Assembly: GCA_948468535.1 (NCBI GenBank)
Contig: CAOKIL010000010.1
Coordinates: 1-33,306 of the forward strand
Source: an uncultured Eubacteriales bacterium
GTDB lineage: Bacteria > Bacillota > Clostridia > Monoglobales > Monoglobaceae
DNA length: 33,306 bases
Direction: 5' to 3'
The first letter of the stretch is position 1; each line of letters begins with the position of its first letter. The translations under genes were made by a program, and so were the position numbers. The notes beneath the pieces are model-generated. The model was not told the origin of the DNA, did no database searches, and was given only the letters and a program-made list of their open reading frames with translations. This document shows, piece after piece, positions 3,589 through 33,278 of the stretch.

Positions 3589-4821
3589 ATGCCAGTATGC
3601 TATAATAAACTTTGGAAAGTATTGATTGACAAAAATTTAAAGAAAACAGATTTAAAAAAATTTGCAGGTATTAGTTTTAATGTGTTGGCAAAAATGGGCA
3701 AAAATGAAACTGTCTCTATGGAAAGTATTGAAAAAATATGCCTTACATTAGATTGCAACATAGGAGATATAATGGAAATTGTAAGCGATAATACTTCTCA
3801 TATTTGTAAACCAAAGGCTATTGAATTGTTTGCAGGTGCAGGCGGATTGGCTCTTGGAATAGAAAAAGCTGGTTTTGATACGGTAGCTTTGATTGAGATT
3901 GATAAAAATGCGGCTGATACATTGAAATGCAACCGTCCTCAATGGAATGTTATTTGTGATGATATTGCAAATATATCATGCTTGGATTTAGAAAAATATT
4001 TTGGAATAAAAAAATGTGAATTAGATTTGTTATCAGGCGGTGCACCGTGTCAATCATTTTCTTATGCCGGAAAACGATTAGGTTTAGAGGACGCAAGAGG
4101 AACATTGTTTTACCATTATGCGATGTTTTTAGAAAAACTACAGCCTAAAATGTTTTTATTTGAAAACGTGAAAGGTTTATTGACTCATGACCGAGGAAAA
4201 ACATATAAAACTATAATTGATATATTTGAGAGAGCCGGTTATACAATAACCAAATCACAAATAAAAGTATTAAATGCTTGGGACTATGGCGTTGCACAAA
4301 AAAGAGAACGTCTTATAACAGTTGGGATAAGAAACGACTTAGCGAATAAAATAAAATTTGATTTTCCTGCTCCACACAAGTATAAGCCCGTTCTACGAGA
4401 TATATTGTTAGATTGTCCCAAGAGCGAGGGAACACCCTATTCAGAATATAAGAGAAAAATATTTGAGTTAGTTCCTCCAGGTGGTTATTGGCGTGATATT
4501 CCTAAGGATATTGCAAAAGAATATATGAAAAGCTGTTGGTATATGGAAGGTGGCAGAACAGGAATTTTAAGACGATTAAGTTTAGACGAACCATCTCTTG
4601 CGGTTTTGACTTCTCCAAGCCAAAAACAAACAGACCGCTGCCACCCTTTAGAGGCAAGACCTTTTACAATCAGAGAAAATGCTCGTTGTCAAAGTTTTCC
4701 CGATGATTGGCAATTTTGTGGTAGTATCGGACAGCAGTACAAACAGGTTGGTAATGCTGTGCCGGTAAACTTAGCATACGAAATAGGCTTAAAAATCAAA
4801 GAAGGATTGGAGTGTTTATAA
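3589..4821 (+). CDS. DNA (cytosine-5) methyltransferase with N-terminal HTH
   Basis: The modification subunit of a type II restriction system, 410 residues. Residues 1-66 form an XRE/HTH_26-like DNA-binding domain (KTDLKKFAGISFNVLAKMGK ... LDCNIGDIMEIV). The methyltransferase follows with all landmarks visible: motif I ELFAGAGG (79-86), motif IV GGAPCQSFS with catalytic Cys154, motif VI ENV (192-194), motif VIII QKRER (237-241) and motif X QVGNAVPVNLA (from 386). It flips out cytosine and methylates C5 to protect host sites. The fused HTH resembles those of autoregulating methyltransferases and probably represses its own promoter (inference). GAGGTG precedes the ATG. The stop TAA overlaps the endonuclease ATG, giving coupled translation. 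Confidence 0.93.
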   Translation: MPVCYNKLWKVLIDKNLKKTDLKKFAGISFNVLAKMGKNETVSMESIEKICLTLDCNIGDIMEIVSDNTSHICKPKAIELFAGAGGLALGIEKAGFDTVALIEIDKNAADTLKCNRPQWNVICDDIANISCLDLEKYFGIKKCELDLLSGGAPCQSFSYAGKRLGLEDARGTLFYHYAMFLEKLQPKMFLFENVKGLLTHDRGKTYKTIIDIFERAGYTITKSQIKVLNAWDYGVAQKRERLITVGIRNDLANKIKFDFPAPHKYKPVLRDILLDCPKSEGTPYSEYKRKIFELVPPGGYWRDIPKDIAKEYMKSCWYMEGGRTGILRRLSLDEPSLAVLTSPSQKQTDRCHPLEARPFTIRENARCQSFPDDWQFCGSIGQQYKQVGNAVPVNLAYEIGLKIKEGLECL

Positions 4822-5636
4822 TGTGGAATTTGTCATTTATCAGTGAGCAGGATTTTAAAAACCATGTTCAAGATACTATAAAGAAATATGGTGAGAAATT
4901 AGAGTCATTTGATTTAAAAAGATTTAATAAAAATCTTGTTGACCCTATTAAACTTATTTTCGATAAAACAGTATATCAAGCCACTTGGGAAGAAATTGTC
5001 AGTAACGAAATTTTCAGGCAGAGAGATAAATCAAATAATAATGATATAGGATATTTTCATCAAAGAATATTCCAGTACATAAAAAATTGTCATGTTCCGC
5101 CAAACGGAGAAGAAGGAGGTTGGGATGTTATATATCAAGATGAGCATGGGATAAAATTACCAGATGATAATGTGGTTAAAACTATCTATGTGGAAATGAA
5201 AAATAAACATAACACAATGAATTCCGCATCTGCAGGAAAAACATTTATAAAAATGCAAAATCAATTATTAAAAGATGATGATTGTGCTTGTTTTCTTGTG
5301 GAAGCTATTGCGCAACGTTCACAAAATATTAAGTGGGAAACGACAGTGGACAAGGTTAAGGTTGGTCATAGGCTTATACGCCGAGTAAGTATTGACAAGT
5401 TTTATTCTTTAGTAACTGGTCAGGATGATGCTTTTTATCAAATGTGTATGGTTTTGCCAAAAGTTATTCAAAGTGCCGTTGAAGATTTAGGCTCTGCACT
5501 TGTCCCTTGTGATACTGTTATGGAGGAATTACAAACCATAGCAAAAAGACAAAACATTAAATCAAATGATTTAGCTATTGCAATGGCAGTGTATATGTTG
5601 GGATTTGGCTCTTACAACGGATTTGCAATAGCATAA
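4821..5636 (+). CDS. Eco47II-family type II restriction endonuclease
   Basis: A 271-residue nuclease. The segment YVEMKNKHNTMNSASAGKTF with the following KMQNQL is the hallmark of the Eco47II/Sau96I-type family (RE_Eco47II). E125 and K127 of VEMK are the ExK half of a PD-(D/E)xK site, and the Asp of GWDVIYQ (about D102) is the likely first metal ligand. Known members cut GGNCC, so that is the predicted target. I start it at the ATG at 4821, overlapping the methyltransferase stop, with GGAG at 4809-4812. A GTG at 4812 would lie inside that ribosome site. The length is normal and no defect is visible, so the pair looks functional. Confidence 0.88.
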   Translation: MWNLSFISEQDFKNHVQDTIKKYGEKLESFDLKRFNKNLVDPIKLIFDKTVYQATWEEIVSNEIFRQRDKSNNNDIGYFHQRIFQYIKNCHVPPNGEEGGWDVIYQDEHGIKLPDDNVVKTIYVEMKNKHNTMNSASAGKTFIKMQNQLLKDDDCACFLVEAIAQRSQNIKWETTVDKVKVGHRLIRRVSIDKFYSLVTGQDDAFYQMCMVLPKVIQSAVEDLGSALVPCDTVMEELQTIAKRQNIKSNDLAIAMAVYMLGFGSYNGFAIA

Positions 5637-7059: not shown

Positions 7060-10000
7060 TTATTTTAAATTCTCAATAATCATTTCAAATACTGCCGCCG
7101 CTTGTGCGCGTGTTGTATTTGAAAGCGGTCTAAAGGTATTATCGTCATTACCGAGCATAATATCGCTCTGCATATTCCATATTACAGCTTCCTTTGCATA
7201 ATCTGAAACATCGTCATTATCAGCATAAGATAATTCGCCGTAGGCTTCTGTATTGTACGCTTTAAATTTAGCATATCTATATACAATAGCCGCCATTTGT
7301 TCACGTGTTATATTTTCCTCCGGCGCAAATTCCTCTGCGGAATATCCCTCGACAATTCCGTTAAGTCTTGCCCAATATACCGCGTTGCCATACCAACTAT
7401 CAGCGTCCACATCTGCAAACGGGTATCCCAATATCTCGTCTGATATATCCGGCTCGTTTTCCATTCTGTAAAGAACAGTTACAAACATCGCTCTTGTAAT
7501 ATCCGTTTCGGGCGCAAATTCCGCATTGCTGACACCGACCATCAGACCGTTTTCAAAAGCATATTTAACGGAACTATAATACCACGCGTTTTCGGGAACA
7601 TCTGTAAACCAATTATCGGTTTCTAACGGTTTATCCGCTTCTGTTGGAACAGGTGTTTCCGTTGGCTTCGGAGTTGATTTTATTGACGAACCGCCGCCAC
7701 CGCTGCCGTGTTTTGTATTTGATTTTGCTACTTCAACATCTAATTCCTTTGTTTTAATCAGACAGGACGGAAGTGTATTATATCTGTCAATCGCTTGCAT
7801 ATAATCGCTATCGTTTGTTGTATATGCGGCAATATTAGGATACATATTTACTTTAACTTTCGCATTACCCGCTTTCTCTGCGGTGATTACGCCGTTTGTA
7901 ACAGATACAATATCCTCATTATCAGATACTATATTTAAGTTTGGATAGTTTACTTTGTCCCCGCTGTTTATACTGCTTTCAAGCAATAGTAAATCGCCTG
8001 CCGACATCTGAATTTTATCCGTATAACTTTTGCCGTTTTCATCTGTAATTGTTATTGGCTTATTCATCAAGGCTTCAATCTCTATATCTGCGCTTCGGAT
8101 AATTGAATAATCCTCAATACTTCCGTTTGTGTATATTCTGACACTTGCGGTTTCTGTAATGGTAGTTTCGGTTCTGCTTTCCTCAAACGCTTCTTCAGGA
8201 ATATCCGCATTAAAGGTTATGCTTGCCGTATCGCCTGAAACAAGGTCAAATTCATCGCTTTTCATCACATTTCCGTTACAGTTAATATATATTTGTTCGC
8301 CCTTTGCGTTTTCGCTTCCGCTATTTTTCACTGATACGGTAAATTGCGCTGTGTTTCTGTCAAGCATTTTGTGAGAAATATCGGTAATTTCAATTAAACT
8401 GTCATAATCGAGCGTTTCGGTTACGCTATCATATTCCAATCCGCCGTGGTCTATCGCCGCGACAAGCGAAACTCCGTCAAGCTCATCAGGAACATTCCAT
8501 TCGAGAGTTTGCGTTATGCTGCCGCCGCCTGATATTTCATCAATTAAAATATCGTCAATAAGAGATTTTTCTCCATCCTTTATCATAAAAAGTGATAAAG
8601 GAACATCAGACATTGTTAAAAGCGACTCATTTTTAACCGTAATATTTATCGGCATATCTTCGCGTCCTGCTGTAATATCCTCCGTATTGTCAATGCTTAC
8701 GGTATATCTTTCCACATTAAAGTCAAAATCTGCGCTGACTAACTCTCTGTTGTCCGTATTTTCAACGGGTATCATTTCACCTGAAACATCTGTTATTTCC
8801 GACATACCTTTGAGATATATACACCGAAGCACTCCGTTTCCGACCATTACGCAATCAATGTCGCTGTAATTTGCTCCTTTTTCATCTGTCATTTGAACAG
8901 GCTGTGTCCATTTGCTCGCATATAGTTTTTCAATAATCGGGTCACCTGCATTAACAATGCCGACCTCTCCGTTTATATCAGGAGTTACAGACCAGTCAAC
9001 CGCATTTCCGTTATCATCAACAGACGGATATGTTTGGGGGGTTCCGTTTTCGTAAACATACGGATAGTTAAACGGCTCAAAGGTTTCCATTGCCATATAC
9101 ATCTGACGCTCTGTATAATAGTTTTCAGGTTCGGTTGCCGCGTCGCTGTTACGGTCAATTCCATCTTTGAAGCTGACGCCGTTTTCCGTCCAAGTCAAAT
9201 ATACATTACTGTCATCTGAATTTACAATAAATTCAGTATAAGGGTTATTCTCTTTTGCTTCTATAATTGTCTTTTCACCCGAATAGACCGGATAATGCTT
9301 ATTTATAAGCATTACATCTGTTCCGTCCTTGTCGGTTGTTTCAATTATGTTATCTAAAATCCTGCTTATGCTTTGTTCCGCAATATTACCGTTTGAGATA
9401 TAATAAAGTGTTACTCCGTCCGGCGTATTCGCAAGCTCCAAATAGCTTTGGTTATATGCGTCATTTGTAAGGCGCATTGCCGGATAGAATTTCTCATTCT
9501 CAAAGTCATAAAGCTGTAAGAATATATCTCTGTCATCTATGGTTTCTGTACGCTTGTCTAAATCGACAAGGTATGCCGACACGGCATATTTGCCGCAGTT
9601 TATTGTTTCGTGTTCAATTACCTTCGGGTCGCTTGAAAGAGCTGCTATTGAAATTTCACTGCTTTGAGGCTCTCTCAGCCAAAGACCCGCGTATTGCGAC
9701 ATTTCTTCATCGTCTTTGGATATAACAATGCTGTCGTCTACCGTTACATAATGTGATAAATCAACAAAACCCTGTCCGTACCAGTTTTCCTCAAACACCG
9801 TAATATCATCGTCCGACATTGCGCTTATTAAATTTTGCGACGCTTGATTTGAATATGTATCCACCCATTTATCCGTTTCAAAATCATAGAAACGATATGC
9901 TACAGTTGAATATGCGTCAAGTAAATCTCCAACGGTAAGCTCACTGTCTGTCTGCTTATAATCCGTTTTTACATATGTAACCAAAAGCTGTTTTCTGCCG

Positions 10001-13000
10001 TCCGGTCCGACATAGTAAGAAGCGGAAGCAAAATCGTCCGCTGTGTTATCCGCAGCGGTTGTATGCGTTACATACTGCGGCGCTGATAAAGTCTTCGATT
10101 CTTTATCAAAGAACACCGCTTTTATATCACGGCTGTTAAGACGCGCGGTAAAGTCATTGCTGTCTGCATTACCCTCGCTTGACCAAGTTATGAGAAGCTT
10201 GTCGCCCAAATCCTCAATTTGCGGAGTATCGTCATTTGTTCCGTCATTATCTACATTTTGCGGATTAGACCACCTTCCGTTTTCATAAATAGTATATTTC
10301 AGATTTATTCCGCTTGCGTCACTGTCAAGGAATATCATAATCTGCTTTGAATCAGCTCCGTTATATTCATCTCCGCCATCAATAGTAAATATTTGCGGAT
10401 ATGCGTGAGGATATGCGCCGGTCATCAGAGTGTTTTCATTATATGTGTCTGTTCCTGTGGAGAACAGGGCAATATCACCGCCGCCATTCCATTCTCCTCG
10501 ATTTTCAAGGTACAGCTTTTCGTCTGTGTCATTTTCGGTAATCACATCATATCTGTAATCACCGTCAACCGACATAAGCTTTGAAAGCGTTCCGCTGTTA
10601 ATGCTAAACATATCGTATTTCTTATTTGCTATAAGCCAGCGTTTTTTAACCAATCCGCCGAGAATTTCAAGCAGTAGGTCGGCTGTCAAGGTAACATTTC
10701 CGGCGCCGTCGCCTGCTGTTGTAAATATCATATCAAAATCAGCCGCGCCGTTTAGGGAAACAGACGCTATTTTATCGCTTAGAAGCGATGCACCGACGGT
10801 AAGCGTAACTTTAGGTCTTATCATCAGCTTTCCGTAAATGCTTAATTGTCTGTTTACATCTGAATTGCCGAGTTTTGTCAGGTCAATCGTTCCTGCTTCG
10901 TCCATATATAAATAATTCGGTTCAGCAGGATTTTGATAGTACGGCTCAATAGCGAGCATTGCCGTTATATCGCCGCTTAATTCTCCCTTGACGAATATTA
11001 CAATTCCGATAGGCGTTGTATATTCATATTTTGCGCTTGCATTGCCTGTTACAACACCCGTTACAACAAAATCCTTGAAGTAGTAGCGGTTTTCATCTAC
11101 GTCATAACCCATTAAAAGTTCAAGAGCAACGCTTAAATTAACCTTTAAGTCTGCCGTAACCTTGCTGCTCTTTTCATTTTCCTTATCCTTTTTGTCAACC
11201 GCGTCTTTGGCTGTGTCGGCAGCTTCATTCTTGATTTTGTCGTCCTTTGCCTTTTCTGCGGCGGTTTTTTCGTTATCGGGCTTGTCGGAGGCTTCCTCTA
11301 ATTTCTGTGCGCCCTCTTTTACAGCTTCCGCCGCTGTTTTAGGCGCTTCGCTGCTTTCAGGGTCTTTCTTATCCTTATCTTTATTGTCTTTTTTCTTGCT
11401 GCTGTCATAGGATTTCTTAAAATCCTTATTCCAGCCGAAACTGATAGTTCTGTCATTTTCGGTTGTTTCAACATTCAGCTTGCTTTCAACCGTATCGGAC
11501 AGCTTGTTGTCAAGCGCGTCCATTTTTGCGTTAAGTCCCAAATCAAACGCCATATCAACGTCGCCTATAAATTCAAGCGTTGGATTTAACGGTGATTTAA
11601 AGGAGTTTACAATATTTATAACCGACAGCTTTGGTTTATATGTAAAGCCTATGTTGTGCTTTATATAACCTACATCATATTGGTCATACACCCGTATTGT
11701 GAGATAATCGCCTGCCGCAACGGCTTCTGTTGCCGGATTAAAGCTGTAATTATATGCGTCGGGATTGCTTTTGTTCTGTTCCAAAAGCACAGGGTCTTTA
11801 ATCTCATATACACCGTTTTCCTCGTTATATATTGCCGTATATGTTTTTTTGAGCATACCGTCCGAGCTGTGGCGTTCAACCTCAACCTTGCCGACCGCCG
11901 CGGTTGTCGGTAAAAGCTCATCTATCTCAAAAGTGTATAAATGGCGCTTATCCTCATTTGAAATCGCCGAATTTGAAATGCCGTTTAAATCCCCGCCCTC
12001 GGTGCGATAGGCATTGAAATTCTTTACATTAAAGGTATTATACTCGTCAACAACAAAATCAGTTGCCGCGCGGTTTACCGTTACATCTCCCGTATAGCTT
12101 CTGCCGCCGTAAGCAAGCGTTGCCGTATAGGTTTCGCCTGCGTCAAAATCGCTTGCTTCAATTCGCCATTCGCCGTCTGCGTTTGTTGTAACCGTATGAC
12201 CGCCCGCCGTAATACTTGCGTTCGCTATCGGCTGTGACTTTTTGTTTGGCTTAGGTCTTGAATTTTCAATTACGGAACAGGCGTCAATTGATACTTTTCC
12301 CGTAAGCACATTCTTAAAATCTGTGTCTTTCGTGGATTTTGGCACAATATTAAAATACACTATCGGACTGCCCATAACATTCGGCGCAAAATTGAATATA
12401 TCGCCGGCATACACGTCTTTATTTATGCTGTTGTAGCTATTTCCGAGCGCCTTTATTTCCGCCGCTTCCAAAATTCCATTACGGTCAATATCACCCGTAA
12501 AATCCTGCCATTGGAATTTATATCCTGTATTGCCTTGGTCGTTCATACCGCCTGCAAACTGATATATTTTTCCTGTTCTGAAAGGCGATACCTTAATTTC
12601 ATCACCCCTCAAAAGTCCGTTTGCGTCAGTATTTTTATATTTTGCAACTTGACCGCTGCCGTTTTCGTCCATATATGCAACATAGCCCTGCTGCTGTGCG
12701 TCCTTGCTGTTTGCTTTCGGATTTACCGCAACGGATATTTCAGGTTTTTGATATAACGCTTCAAGCGAATTATCCGTTTTCAGCGGTGAAAAGAGGTAAT
12801 TGCCCGGTGTTGACGCGTCTGCATTTTCAACAGTTTTTGTCCAATCGCTGTATTTATTGTATATCGGCGACCACGATTTATATACATTATGCGCGTCAGA
12901 CAGCTTTTCGCTATACAAATCGCGTTCGGTTTGAGTTAAAGTTACTTTCTGAGCATATCTGTTTCCGTGCGCGTAGTTAAATCCGCTTACAGCATAATCG

Positions 13001-15192
13001 CCTTTTCCCGCGATGTTAATTTGAATTTTATCAAGCACACCTGTCTTTATTGTTTCCTCATTTTTGAATGTGCCTGTTGCAAACTGTGACTTGCTTGTAT
13101 CAATTTTAATTGTTGTATATGCCATCTTTTGTTTATATACGGGATATATACGGTAACAGGTAAAGTCCTCGCCGTTTCTTTTGTCTGTCAGCTGTGCCGT
13201 ACTGCCTATTGCTTTGCCGTCTACGTCCTTTAGTTTGCCCGTATATAAGTCTTTTATGGAGAAGGAATCACCCTTGTAATAGAAAAATTTATTTGTCGAG
13301 CCTGCCTTTGTTTCAAATTTTATTCCCCACAAATATGTATTGTCTTTTTCCGTCCTGTTTGTTTCCTCAAAGCTAACGATATCATTATTATAAAAAAACT
13401 TTGATGTGGTTGATGCGTTTTCGCCCTTAAATTTAATCTTACCTGCAAGAAATGCGTTGCCGTCATTGCTTGATGAAGTCGGTGAGGTATAAATCTTCTT
13501 TTGTATCAGAGCGTCGTCATCATACATACCAATCTGAATTTCAATAGGAAGATAATGCAGTTCTACATCCTTTTTGAACAGCCCCATTGCTTCATGGCAC
13601 TTTCCGGATACATACGTTCCGTATGTGATACTGCCGGTTTTTCTGTTAGAATCATTCAAAGTGATAACATCGGTTGTGTCATATTTATGATAGTGATTAA
13701 TTTTATTATCCCATCCGATATTAACATAATTCCACATATCATGATAATAGCCCTTGCTTCCATGCCAGCCGAACAGCCACCATGTATCATCATACCATGT
13801 TCCTTCATAGAATTCTTTAGATGTTATGCCAAGTTTTCCTACCATTGAAAGGTCAAGATTTAATTTGATATATGAATTCTGATTACACGAACTGATTGGA
13901 ATATACCAATAACTGTTGTCTCCCCCCCATGTTCCGTAACTTCCGTTATTAGATATAATCTTTGGAGTAACTTTTTCTTTCCTACTCCATATATTATCGT
14001 TTGCCGCCATAAGCTGAATATCATCAGACATAAGCTGCACGGAATTATTTTCGGTGTCCGCAACAACATCATCACCGTTTTCCTTTTCGCCGATTATGCT
14101 GCCGTGTTCAATGTTAACGACAGCTACCTCGTTACTGTCATCAATATATACCTTAAAAGATACATCGTCTATGGCAGGGTGTTTTTTAATTGGAATTTCA
14201 ATTCTCTTATATTCCTGTCCCGGTACAAAAGCGATTTCCGTTGAAAACCCATCATAATATGTTCCCTCTGCGGCTGTATATTCAGCAGATGAAACAGTGA
14301 CAGTACCATAACGATACAGTCCTGTTTTACGTTCAATTATAAGCTCGGCTTTGTCGCTGTTTTCATCAACTGTAACAGAATTTTCAGAAAAACCAAAAGT
14401 AATGTTTTCTGCTTCCTCATTGTCCTTTATATTCATAAACCCCGTAGGATTTTCGGAAACCGCCCCGTTTTCAGTGTGAGAAAGTACAAAAAGCACTTGT
14501 TCCTCATCCTCTGAAATTTTATCGTCTATTGTTTTGAATTTAAGCTTTTTAATGTATTCGCCGGGCTCAAATTCAAGAGTATATTCCACGCCCTCAAGCT
14601 CGTCATACATTTCTCCATAGGCTTCGGAAAGCATTTCTGTGGTTTCCTCATCGGCTTCGCGCCAATTAGTATAGTCTGACTCCGCGCCTGTTAAGGCTGT
14701 CCTTGCACTCTGCAAGTCCATACCCGTGGTTTTGTTTTCGTTGACGTCAATTTCTTCGCCGTCAACATCTGTAAGCTCAACCTCGCTGTTATCATCTGCA
14801 GCTGTTTCATCATATATGAGCGTCTGCGCTTCGGGGTTTTCAGGTAATGTTTTGTCAAAGATTATGCCCGGAACTTCGAGAGTATAATCCTCGCCGTATT
14901 TTGCGGTCATATCTATCGCCTTAAAGACGACGCTTGCCGCTTCGTCCGTATTGCCGCGGCGAACAATAGCAAATTCTGCTTCAGTTACATCTTCGTTTGT
15001 TTCCATTCTTGGTGTGAGGAAATCAAACATACCCTGCGGATATTGTTCCTCATCAACCGACGCTAAAAGCGTTTGCTTAATTGCCGCGTCCGACGCTGTT
15101 TCGCTGTCGGCAAAGACTGTCGCGGGCAATAACTGTATTAGCATACTGACCGCTAATGCAGCACTTAGTAATTGTGTAATCTTTCGTTTCAT
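7060..15192 (-). CDS. Giant S-layer-anchored surface protein (2710 aa)
   Basis: A signal peptide (MKRKITQLLSAALAVSML, cleavage near A28, TVFA-DSE) sends it out of the cell. Two Calx-beta-like repeats follow at about 60-250 and 258-357. Later comes a calcium-loop-like DRNGILEAAE near 900, a carboxypeptidase-regulatory-like domain near 986-1044, and a very Lys/Asp/Glu-rich low-complexity stretch at about 1262-1345. A region with beta-propeller-like repeats lies at 1600-1765, CARDB-like domains at about 2164-2330, and a Big_2-like Ig domain at about 2377-2447. A Gly/Pro-rich linker (GSGGGGSS, PKPTETPVP) leads to three SLH domains (about 2525-2705; WFTDVPENAWYY, YPFADVDADSWY, YADNDDVSDYAK). SLH domains bind cell-wall polymers, so it is displayed on the surface, probably as an adhesin or sensor. 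GGAGGG precedes the ATG. The frame is intact throughout. Confidence 0.9.
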   Translation of the reverse strand: MKRKITQLLSAALAVSMLIQLLPATVFADSETASDAAIKQTLLASVDEEQYPQGMFDFLTPRMETNEDVTEAEFAIVRRGNTDEAASVVFKAIDMTAKYGEDYTLEVPGIIFDKTLPENPEAQTLIYDETAADDNSEVELTDVDGEEIDVNENKTTGMDLQSARTALTGAESDYTNWREADEETTEMLSEAYGEMYDELEGVEYTLEFEPGEYIKKLKFKTIDDKISEDEEQVLFVLSHTENGAVSENPTGFMNIKDNEEAENITFGFSENSVTVDENSDKAELIIERKTGLYRYGTVTVSSAEYTAAEGTYYDGFSTEIAFVPGQEYKRIEIPIKKHPAIDDVSFKVYIDDSNEVAVVNIEHGSIIGEKENGDDVVADTENNSVQLMSDDIQLMAANDNIWSRKEKVTPKIISNNGSYGTWGGDNSYWYIPISSCNQNSYIKLNLDLSMVGKLGITSKEFYEGTWYDDTWWLFGWHGSKGYYHDMWNYVNIGWDNKINHYHKYDTTDVITLNDSNRKTGSITYGTYVSGKCHEAMGLFKKDVELHYLPIEIQIGMYDDDALIQKKIYTSPTSSSNDGNAFLAGKIKFKGENASTTSKFFYNNDIVSFEETNRTEKDNTYLWGIKFETKAGSTNKFFYYKGDSFSIKDLYTGKLKDVDGKAIGSTAQLTDKRNGEDFTCYRIYPVYKQKMAYTTIKIDTSKSQFATGTFKNEETIKTGVLDKIQINIAGKGDYAVSGFNYAHGNRYAQKVTLTQTERDLYSEKLSDAHNVYKSWSPIYNKYSDWTKTVENADASTPGNYLFSPLKTDNSLEALYQKPEISVAVNPKANSKDAQQQGYVAYMDENGSGQVAKYKNTDANGLLRGDEIKVSPFRTGKIYQFAGGMNDQGNTGYKFQWQDFTGDIDRNGILEAAEIKALGNSYNSINKDVYAGDIFNFAPNVMGSPIVYFNIVPKSTKDTDFKNVLTGKVSIDACSVIENSRPKPNKKSQPIANASITAGGHTVTTNADGEWRIEASDFDAGETYTATLAYGGRSYTGDVTVNRAATDFVVDEYNTFNVKNFNAYRTEGGDLNGISNSAISNEDKRHLYTFEIDELLPTTAAVGKVEVERHSSDGMLKKTYTAIYNEENGVYEIKDPVLLEQNKSNPDAYNYSFNPATEAVAAGDYLTIRVYDQYDVGYIKHNIGFTYKPKLSVINIVNSFKSPLNPTLEFIGDVDMAFDLGLNAKMDALDNKLSDTVESKLNVETTENDRTISFGWNKDFKKSYDSSKKKDNKDKDKKDPESSEAPKTAAEAVKEGAQKLEEASDKPDNEKTAAEKAKDDKIKNEAADTAKDAVDKKDKENEKSSKVTADLKVNLSVALELLMGYDVDENRYYFKDFVVTGVVTGNASAKYEYTTPIGIVIFVKGELSGDITAMLAIEPYYQNPAEPNYLYMDEAGTIDLTKLGNSDVNRQLSIYGKLMIRPKVTLTVGASLLSDKIASVSLNGAADFDMIFTTAGDGAGNVTLTADLLLEILGGLVKKRWLIANKKYDMFSINSGTLSKLMSVDGDYRYDVITENDTDEKLYLENRGEWNGGGDIALFSTGTDTYNENTLMTGAYPHAYPQIFTIDGGDEYNGADSKQIMIFLDSDASGINLKYTIYENGRWSNPQNVDNDGTNDDTPQIEDLGDKLLITWSSEGNADSNDFTARLNSRDIKAVFFDKESKTLSAPQYVTHTTAADNTADDFASASYYVGPDGRKQLLVTYVKTDYKQTDSELTVGDLLDAYSTVAYRFYDFETDKWVDTYSNQASQNLISAMSDDDITVFEENWYGQGFVDLSHYVTVDDSIVISKDDEEMSQYAGLWLREPQSSEISIAALSSDPKVIEHETINCGKYAVSAYLVDLDKRTETIDDRDIFLQLYDFENEKFYPAMRLTNDAYNQSYLELANTPDGVTLYYISNGNIAEQSISRILDNIIETTDKDGTDVMLINKHYPVYSGEKTIIEAKENNPYTEFIVNSDDSNVYLTWTENGVSFKDGIDRNSDAATEPENYYTERQMYMAMETFEPFNYPYVYENGTPQTYPSVDDNGNAVDWSVTPDINGEVGIVNAGDPIIEKLYASKWTQPVQMTDEKGANYSDIDCVMVGNGVLRCIYLKGMSEITDVSGEMIPVENTDNRELVSADFDFNVERYTVSIDNTEDITAGREDMPINITVKNESLLTMSDVPLSLFMIKDGEKSLIDDILIDEISGGGSITQTLEWNVPDELDGVSLVAAIDHGGLEYDSVTETLDYDSLIEITDISHKMLDRNTAQFTVSVKNSGSENAKGEQIYINCNGNVMKSDEFDLVSGDTASITFNADIPEEAFEESRTETTITETASVRIYTNGSIEDYSIIRSADIEIEALMNKPITITDENGKSYTDKIQMSAGDLLLLESSINSGDKVNYPNLNIVSDNEDIVSVTNGVITAEKAGNAKVKVNMYPNIAAYTTNDSDYMQAIDRYNTLPSCLIKTKELDVEVAKSNTKHGSGGGGSSIKSTPKPTETPVPTEADKPLETDNWFTDVPENAWYYSSVKYAFENGLMVGVSNAEFAPETDITRAMFVTVLYRMENEPDISDEILGYPFADVDADSWYGNAVYWARLNGIVEGYSAEEFAPEENITREQMAAIVYRYAKFKAYNTEAYGELSYADNDDVSDYAKEAVIWNMQSDIMLGNDDNTFRPLSNTTRAQAAAVFEMIIENLK

Positions 15193-15451
15193 TTTGGAAA
15201 TCCCTCCTTTAGTTATTGGCGCGTCTTTTACATAAAAAAGTACGCAAGCACACCGAAGTCCTGCTTACGTACTAAAAAAACATAGGCAAGACTTTATTGT
15301 ATTGCAGCACAATTTATCTTACAAAAACAGCCCAATAGGGTACAATTTATTAAGCCTATGCTTTTTACTAACATAAGCCTACTGAACTGTTTTTATTCAA
15401 AAGTGCTGTAAATTTTCCATAAGGCAACGGGTAGAAACTCTATCCATTTTT
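15193..15451 (-). promoter_or_regulatory. Structured 5' leader of the giant gene, candidate attenuator
   Basis: About 250 nt of transcript separate the promoter from the giant gene. In plus coordinates the minus-strand RNA can form several stems: A, 403-408 with 305-310 of the 15,000s (CAGCAC/GTGCTG); nested B, 15387-15394 with 15323-15330 (8 bp); and C, 15354-15360 with 15281-15287 (CATAGGC/GCCTATG). C crosses A and B and so makes a pseudoknot. U7 follows stem C directly. An early hairpin GG(A)TAGA-GTT-TCTACC lies near 15431-15446. A terminator hairpin comes last. The GTTTCTACC string recalls the purine riboswitch J2/3 segment, but the rest of that fold is not visible, so I do not assign a class. 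Confidence 0.55.
15233..15273 (-). terminator. Terminator hairpin inside the giant gene's leader
   Basis: On the minus strand AGTACGTAAGCA pairs with TGCTTGCGTACT (one G-U pair) around a loop containing CTTCGG, followed by a run of T. It sits about 40 bases before the giant gene's ATG and downstream of its promoter, so it would stop transcription unless prevented. Confidence 0.7.
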
Positions 15452-15480
15452 ATTATATAATAAACGGCAGGAAATTTCAA
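15452..15480 (-). promoter_or_regulatory. Promoter of the giant SLH gene
   Basis: On the minus strand TTGAAA (15480-15475), a 17-bp spacer and TATAAT (15457-15452). This is near consensus. It lies 12 bases beyond the end of the relaxase pseudogene, so the giant gene is independently transcribed. Confidence 0.8.
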
Positions 15481-15492
15481 GAGAAATATGAT

Positions 15493-17175
15493 TTATCGCT
15501 CATATTCGTGATTTCTGTGCTTGCAGAAGATTGTTTTCTGCTGTTGCTTTCCTTGTTCTATTTGCCTGACAAGCGACTTTCTCAACGGCTTTTCTCCTAA
15601 ATCGTCATTGACAGAGGTTTGTGCTTCTGAAAATATATCATCATCAAATTTATTCTTATAGATATATTCTAATTCCTTGCGTATTTGCCGTATTCCGTCT
15701 GATTGAGTTTCCGTCCGCTCCTCCTGTACGGCTGATATATTTTCAGGCATAATATTATTTTTGATTTTAATATAATTTGATTTTTCTGTCCTGTATTCCG
15801 TCTGTAAATCAGTATTTCGAGCCTTTAATTTCTCGGCTATGTCAAGGTTATATTTGTAATTTTGCTCAACTGTGTCAACATCACTTTTGGTTTTACAACC
15901 TAATTCAAACAGCACAAATTCTTTATCAGATTTCAATTCCTTGATTTCCTTTGATAATACTTCGAGCTGTCTTGATAACTGATTTTGCTTAATAATATTT
16001 AATAGATTGCAAGCGGTTTTTTTAGCTTTGATTTTCTTATATTCTGCTGTTTTATTCTCAATGTCTGCTGATAGTTTTCTAAATTGCTTAATTAAATTCG
16101 GGATAAGCTGTTTTTCCGTTTCAACCTGTTTAATCTGCTTTTTATTAAATATGAATTTATATTTCAGCGTAATCAGATTGTTGCGGATATTCTCTAATCT
16201 TTCAGCTATTTTAGCAACGGTATTTTAAAGGCTGTTGACTAATTCTTTCAGCTTATGCAATAATAGGTTATCCTCTTTAATTTGTCTGTTCATCTCGCAG
16301 CGTTCAGAAACACCGCCACGCTTTTCTATAATACGAGCTGTAACGCCCTCGTGGATTGTAGGCTGTTCATCAATTCCGCGCTCTTTAAAGCTACGGCAGT
16401 CCACACGCTCATCAAGCTGTTTATGCTCCAATTTAAGATTGACAACATCTTCCCACGCTTTGCGCCATTTCGTGATTTGCTCCTCGCTGTTCCATTCAGC
16501 ACATATCGGATTTTGTCTGCCGTATCGTGTGCTTTTCGGATTTTTATTCGCTCGTTCAAGACCTTGCGTCATAGCTTCGGAGTGTGTCATATACACTTTC
16601 TTTTTACCCACAAAATACAGATATTGTTTTTCCCAACCGTCAGCTTGTGTCATTTTAAATTCATCAGCGGTAAAACCTTGTTCTTCATCACCGCGCTTGC
16701 AAATGTATTCCTTTTGTGTTTTTGCTTGCTACTTGCCTTTTTCATCAAGAGGGCGCATTGTCAATAAAATATGTGCGTGAGGATTGTGTCCGTCAGTATC
16801 GTGAATATTGACATCGGCGCACATACCCTTGTCAACAAAATTCTCTGTAATAAAGGTTTTAAGAATAGATTTCCGTTCATCAATTTGTAATTCAACCGGC
16901 AAGGCAACTATCAGTTCTCTTGCAAGCCGACTGTTTTTTGATTTTTCGGCAGCTTCGACAGCGTTCCATAGTTCTGCTCTGTCTTGCCATTCTGTCGGAG
17001 CGTTTGACGGTAAAAATACTTCACTGTAAATGCAACCTTGCTTACGAGTATAATCGTGTTGAACACCGTCATAATCGTTATATATTTTTGAACAGGACGC
17101 ATAAGCGGCGGCAGCGACAACTGAACGCCCTATTCCGCGTGTGATTACCTTTGCTTCAAAATGATAAATTGCCAT
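15493..17175 (-). pseudogene. MobA/MobL-family relaxase, broken by two in-frame stop codons
   Basis: The frame runs unshifted for 561 codons from MAIYHFEAKVITRG but is interrupted by TAG at 16731-16729 and TAA at 16227-16225. The first 148 residues hold the relaxase core: YHFEAK, the Tyr-containing AAAAYAS, and the metal-binding HNPHAHILLT. The TAG falls after LDEKGK, where relatives often have Trp (TGG to TAG would explain it). After the stops the frame still reads as relaxase tail (QAKTQKEYICKRG..., then a long helical coiled-coil region ending HRNHEYER). The family nicks oriT and leads strand transfer in MobQ-type mobilisation. Alternatives are readthrough of the stops or sequencing error; decay is likeliest because its neighbours are also broken. 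Confidence 0.85.
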
Positions 17176-18334: not shown

Positions 18335-20335
<2,001 letters not shown>

Positions 20336-32931: not shown

Positions 32932-32937
32932 AATTTT

Positions 32938-33278
32938 GCCAAATAAATCTGAATAATTATCAAAGCCTTTTCATTTTTTTTGTTAAAAATGCAGGCTCTA
33001 TTCAGCATTACCTTATGGTTTTGATAATTGATGGATTTGTTTGGCGACAATCTGAGGCTGCGTTTTTGAGACGGCAGCTTTTTTTCATGGAAAAAAAGCT
33101 GCACAAAAGGTTTTAAAACAAATCGAAACCGTGTGTTTCGATTTGAGAGGAGGAGCAACGGAGCGAGCGGATATGTAATTTGTATACAAATTACATGAAG
33201 CATAGTGAAGTTTGCGACGACGAGGCTTCGGCTGAAGCATTTTTTAGTTTATGAGGTTATTTAAAAGGGGGAATATTT
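32938..33278 (+). promoter_or_regulatory. Long structured 5' leader, candidate regulatory RNA
   Basis: Several perfect stems can form. S1 is CTGAATA 32949-32955 with TATTCAG 32999-33005, enclosing AGCCT/AGGCT. S2 is AATTATCAAA 32955-32964 with TTTGATAATT 33020-33029, which crosses S1. A 12-bp hairpin lies at 33074-33102, an 11-bp hairpin at 33119-33145, and a 24-bp perfect palindrome at 33173-33196 centred on GTATAC. GCTTC-GGCT-GAAGC (33225-33238) is followed by ATTTTTT, like a terminator. GAAGC at 33197-33201 can compete for the same GCTTC. GAGGTTA (33253-33259) pairs with TAACCTC (33284-33290), looping the ribosome site and start codon. The class is not recognised. Confidence 0.6.

Follow-up and report, generated by a model that had tools for sequence, protein, structure and literature searches.

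Organisation of the locus and of the leader

We examined a stretch of 33,306 nt from an uncultured Eubacteriales bacterium (the window, at its full length), in which the gene of a giant secreted SLH protein is preceded by a structured leader on the minus strand (15480 to 15190). Along this strand we detected, in order, a promoter, nested helices, a crossing helix, a U7 tract, a terminator, a ribosome-binding site and the ATG (Table 1). The window also contains a decayed mobilisable element on the minus strand (15493-17175 and 18335-20138), whose MobA/MobL gene carries in-frame TAG and TAA codons and whose serine recombinase is split by frameshifts. On the plus strand (3589-5636) lies a restriction-modification pair, consisting of a DNA cytosine methyltransferase-like protein and, next after it, an Eco47II-type restriction endonuclease.

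Table 1. Positions of the leader elements, the presumed regulated gene and the second RNA copy in the window.
Feature	Position	Strand	Evidence
Promoter TTGAAA-17-TATAAT	15452..15480	-	11/12 consensus matches; region conserved in homologue L083
5' extension, start site to P1	15409..15445	-	present in window copy and L083, absent from most members
P1 5' strand CAGCAC	15403..15408	-	folding; covariation
P1 3' strand GUGCUG	15305..15310	-	folding; covariation
P2 5' strand (~18 bp, includes the 8-bp stem of the first-pass annotation)	15379..15396	-	folding; covariation
P2 3' strand	15321..15338	-	folding; covariation
P3 hairpin, most conserved core; loop AGUAAAA, 3' strand AGCAUAGGC	15354..15378	-	covariation, conservation
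Pseudoknot 5' strand AGGCUU, family register	15352..15357	-	within-copy pairing in homologues
Pseudoknot 3' strand AAGUCU, family register	15289..15294	-	within-copy pairing; L083 alignment
Crossing strand CAUAGGC (first-pass annotation)	15354..15360	-	sequence
Crossing strand GCCUAUG (first-pass annotation)	15281..15287	-	sequence
Antiterminator 5' strand AAGUCUUGC, overlaps pseudoknot 3' strand	15286..15294	-	folding; within-copy pairing
Antiterminator 3' strand GCAGGACUU, inside terminator 5' arm and loop	15256..15264	-	folding; within-copy pairing
U7 tract after crossing helix	15274..15280	-	sequence; U-run conserved in family
12-bp intrinsic terminator hairpin and U tract	15234..15273	-	z -4.8; terminator common among homologues
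Ribosome-binding site AGGAGG	15203..15208	-	sequence
2,710-residue secreted protein, Calx-beta and SLH domains, presumed regulated gene	7060..15192	-	ORF; Pfam
Second RNA copy	32936..33067	+	E 3.7e-5 (model R2), 2.3e-8 (model R3)

Compared with dinucleotide shuffles, folding reached a z of -4.1 for the whole leader, -4.0 for the helix region and -4.8 for the terminator. The lowest background z among 56 stretches (one per 600 bases) was found at 33001, the site of the second RNA copy. All elements of the first-pass annotation were recovered at the positions given: the 6-bp nested stem (CAGCAC/GUGCUG) was found exactly where it had been placed, and the 12-bp terminator indeed ends about 40 nt ahead of the ATG (15192). 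The 8-bp stem AAAAACAG/CUGUUUUU is also present, but it is only the base of the ~18-bp P2 and not the whole helix. The P3 pairing of the window leader is formed by AGGCUUAUG and CAUAGGCUU.

The near-consensus promoter of the same annotation is supported by L083, since this homologue retains both the promoter and the 5' extension. In particular, L083 is one full-length homologue that keeps the promoter, a 36-nt 5' extension, the helices, both U tracts, the terminator and the beginning of a secreted-protein gene. Most members carry the promoter right at P1, unlike the window copy, which is a sub-variant of the family. An upstream ORF at the start site (MDRVSTRCLMENLQHF; 15447-15397) was rejected, as its ATG would fall on the transcription start and has no ribosome site.

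Homologues of the leader in Clostridia

DNA searches of the BLAST type recovered no relatives of the leader in its own genome, in relatives, in the order, in another family, in plasmids or in phages; their sole match (L009) was rejected as a chance similarity within a transporter gene. Within the family, related giant genes were preceded by sequence unlike the leader. The giant SLH protein has its closest orthologues (~57% identity) in another Clostridia family, and these lack the leader, which suggests horizontal transfer or a mis-binned contig.

The covariance search proposed with the first-pass annotation did recover homologous leaders, upstream of SLH and of other surface genes. With the window leader as its only sequence, a first model picked up relatives in three further genomes and another three in this genome. 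The refined model, rebuilt from 13 sequences, gave 123 matches in 31 out of 41 genomes of Clostridia family f16. In the family to which the window belongs it gave 157 matches in 29 out of 38 genomes, and this genome accounts for 26 of these. Together, the two families yielded about 280 matches, spread over 60 of 79 genomes, where E-values are rough, the weakest matches may be false and the genomes searched are often incomplete. Additional copies were found in families f32 and f34. Beyond the closely searched families, the broad searches scored 8 candidates per genome, and the phylum-wide search at this depth, a weak negative, matched this genome alone. Exact core patterns gave 0, 0, 0 and one match in viral contigs, and that one was unrecognised by model R3.

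The Rfam scan, also proposed at the outset, assigned the RNA to no known class: at the gathering threshold Rfam 15 had no match in the window or in the RNAs at 29 homologous loci, and at E up to 1 the homologous RNAs gave just one irrelevant weak microRNA match (the copy in L072).

Several copies had particular surroundings. In the second window copy, near the contig end, a repeat ('gagaggaggagcaacggag...') stands in place of the terminator stretch. This repeat also follows copies on three contigs of the same genome, C12, C40 and C88 (on C88 it is truncated by the contig end). One contig of another genome (C59 of G377; L079, L114) contains three tandem copies, all of which have a promoter and a T-run hairpin of their own, and a fourth copy opposite these three, upstream of an XRE-type regulator.

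Covariation and features outside the model

Covariation in homologues, on which the first-pass annotation had made its proposal depend, was found throughout the modelled helices: in 109 aligned copies, 94.5% of paired cells were standard, against 29-47% in slid registers, and double-sided changes occurred in all 33 modelled pairs. Because the alignment used for this count had itself been fitted to the modelled structure, the independent features weigh more, namely the promoter position, the terminator, the crossing helix and the antiterminator, all of which lie outside the covariance model. A promoter scoring at least 8/12 was present upstream of 136 out of 141 copies (31% of random positions), and in 82 of the copies scoring at least 9/12 the -10 box lay 4 nt ahead of the model start. 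A terminator followed the RNA in 118 out of 141 copies, compared with 6.7% of random windows. The terminator thus stands between promoter and gene in the window and in homologues, the arrangement expected of an attenuating leader. Judged from sequence conservation, the RNA is a structured domain with a nearly invariant core, as in riboswitches.

Crossing helix, antiterminator and terminator

Across the family, a strand of the GGCUUU type just past P3 complements a strand of the AAAGCC type just before the first U run. This pairing crosses P1 and P2, and the AAAGCC strand also complements the 5' arm of the terminator. The window allows the crossing helix to form in two registers. The 7-bp helix of the first-pass annotation (CAUAGGC/GCCUAUG, directly before U7 at 15280-15274) is present, and it recurs in L083, where one U-A pair has become U-G (n = 2), but the family register is the neighbouring AGGCUU/AAGUCU. 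Moreover, the 7-bp helix competes with P3, because CAUAGGC doubles as the P3 3' strand. We also found a 9-bp antiterminator (AAGUCUUGC/GCAGGACUU) in the window leader, which had been missed.

For the crossing helix, the mean duplex energy was -8.26 within copies, -6.34 when partners were swapped between copies and -3.82 when shuffled, and for the antiterminator it was -12.73, -10.17 and -5.64, respectively; a control pairing showed no difference between within and swapped (-3.95 and -3.99). By column count, the crossing helix was paired in 74.7% of cases, compared with at most 70.8% across 200 swaps. Support for the predicted crossing helix is real but modest, because the core hardly varies. 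The antiterminator is kept by covariation and is exclusive of the terminator, as in an attenuator; in the homologous copies, mean energies were -12.6 kcal/mol for the antiterminator hairpin and -16.1 kcal/mol for the terminator. Pseudoknot, antiterminator and terminator exclude one another, since the 3' strand of the crossing helix serves as the antiterminator 5' strand and the antiterminator 3' strand as the terminator 5' arm; they follow each other as in terminating riboswitches.

Genes downstream of the RNA copies

A same-strand gene starts within 250 nt downstream in 87 out of 141 copies. According to a simple, home-made test, 58 of these 87 genes have signal-peptide-like starts, against 16 out of 128 upstream neighbours. 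The most common Pfam domain in the downstream proteins was the BspA-type LRR (LRR_5; 29 out of 78), followed by SLH (8 out of 78, with most long proteins truncated at ~1,000 residues and the SLH domain often lying at the C terminus) and the copper-amine-oxidase N-domain (4); lectins, peptidases, CHAP and Ig-like domains were also present, as were AbrB-like and XRE regulators and small unknown proteins. An SD-preceded ORF followed 75 out of 136 copies, compared with 8.5% of random windows.

About a third of the copies had no clear adjacent downstream gene, and many of these were in this genome. Downstream of several copies in this genome we found a ribosome site, then a tiny ORF and another hairpin. 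On contigs C1, C2, C7, C19, C4 and C62 of G000 (L219-L242), the tiny ORF after several copies is of the M(L/I)NLKTKNRKQ type and the second hairpin precedes a gene of ~98 residues; this layout is possibly a second attenuator in series.

Proposed mechanism and alternative explanations

We consider it likely that the leader is one member of a conserved RNA family whose copies attenuate, in cis, the transcription of surface-protein genes. The RNA probably decides between an early polymerase stop and read-on into cell-surface genes in gut-type Clostridia. The initial proposal of a riboswitch- or protein-type attenuator of no known class is supported by the predicted, mutually exclusive set of pseudoknot, antiterminator and terminator, together with the negative Rfam result. 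The anatomy can be read directly from the sequence; from it we infer the switching, its direction and its signal. Transcription would start near the foot of the long P1-P2 hairpin, capped by P3. If the crossing helix forms, the antiterminator would be blocked, the terminator would fold and transcription would stop; were this helix kept from forming, or opened, the antiterminator would form and the polymerase would read into the surface-protein gene. Pseudoknot for termination and antiterminator for read-through would be the most economical reading. A single cellular signal, be it a small molecule or a protein, could set the balance by reading the conserved P3 core, and such a signal, acting at many loci together, would create a surface-protein regulon.

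One sub-case of attenuation would be protein-controlled or processive antitermination, in which an RNA-binding protein or a modified polymerase reads the P3 core and so overrides the terminator of very long genes. Many downstream genes are indeed very long (at least 300 codons in 56 out of 87, in the part fetched) and the conserved P3 core is compatible with protein binding, but short genes are also found downstream (AbrB-like regulators and ~100-residue proteins) and a helix dedicated to antitermination points to a structural switch; we regard this sub-case as rather unlikely. It is unlikely, too, that the RNA is a stand-alone sRNA of ~170 nt, with its own promoter and terminator, that acts in trans while the genes are neighbours or are read by leakage. 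A promoter locked to P1, a terminator immediately after the RNA and tandem copies, each with a separate promoter and terminator, would suit such an sRNA, which stays a rival because of the third of copies without an obvious adjacent same-strand gene. However, a simple terminator would not need the conserved antiterminator, the bias towards secreted genes is strong, SD-preceded ORFs are in clear excess, and the ribosome sites lie a few tens of nt past the terminator, with scant room for a promoter.

That the leader is a mere end of the decayed mobilisable element next door, a mob terminator with chance folding, is hardly credible. The degenerate MobA/MobL gene does end 13 bp before the promoter, with the broken recombinase beyond, but covarying homologues exist at hundreds of loci, mostly at other sites, and full-length homologue L083 precedes another surface gene; these refute an origin from the element end as the full explanation. 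Mobilisable elements may still spread RNA copies. In two other families (L051/L188 and L059), an open MobA/MobL gene is directly followed by an RNA copy and then by a gene, which encodes a giant surface protein in L188 and a ~100-residue protein in L059; given this order, MobA-type elements may spread the RNA together with cargo.

A tentative extension of the attenuator reading, to which we give somewhat less than an even chance, is that the family is a new riboswitch class. In uncultured gut Clostridia, a signalling molecule would then set the read-through of a whole surface-protein regulon comprising BspA-type LRR, SLH, lectin and cell-wall proteins and AbrB regulators. A genome would hold as many as ~26 such loci, and MobA-type elements would have spread some of them. 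Absent from Rfam, yet present more than 20 times in a genome of 1.8 Mb, the RNA would rank among the most used regulatory RNAs of its lineage. If confirmed, one signal would coordinate what these poorly known gut Clostridia display on their cell surface, and the common core makes the hunt for this signal directly testable.

Comparison with known systems

In terminating riboswitches with pseudoknot aptamers (such as c-di-GMP-II and fluoride), a crossing helix is followed by an antiterminator and a terminator that exchange a strand. The window family resembles them in its structured domain with a crossing helix and in the strand exchange, but differs in having no Rfam match, a different core and a start that usually coincides with the transcription start site. 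Clostridia carry c-di-GMP-I and c-di-GMP-II riboswitches many times in a genome, ahead of surface-protein genes and in some cases as tandem arrays. Multiple copies, a position in surface-gene leaders and tandem arrangements are shared with the present family, although neither the window nor the homologues match those Rfam models.

The sole literature lead among open-licence papers, a scope that makes the lack of other reports weak evidence, was the 'SLH motif', described by Stav et al. 2019 (PMC6429828, Fig. 3e) as an orphan riboswitch candidate upstream of S-layer-homology genes in Clostridia among others. The description gives 80 examples, including Synergistaceae and Negativicutes, with ~60% upstream of SLH genes, and its authors proposed a cell-wall signal such as c-di-GMP (PMC6429828). 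Compared by description only, its 80 examples contrast with our ~280 matches in two Clostridia families, where the BspA-type LRR is commonest. Both are leaders upstream of SLH genes and both occur in Clostridia; the two RNAs may be the same or a related class.
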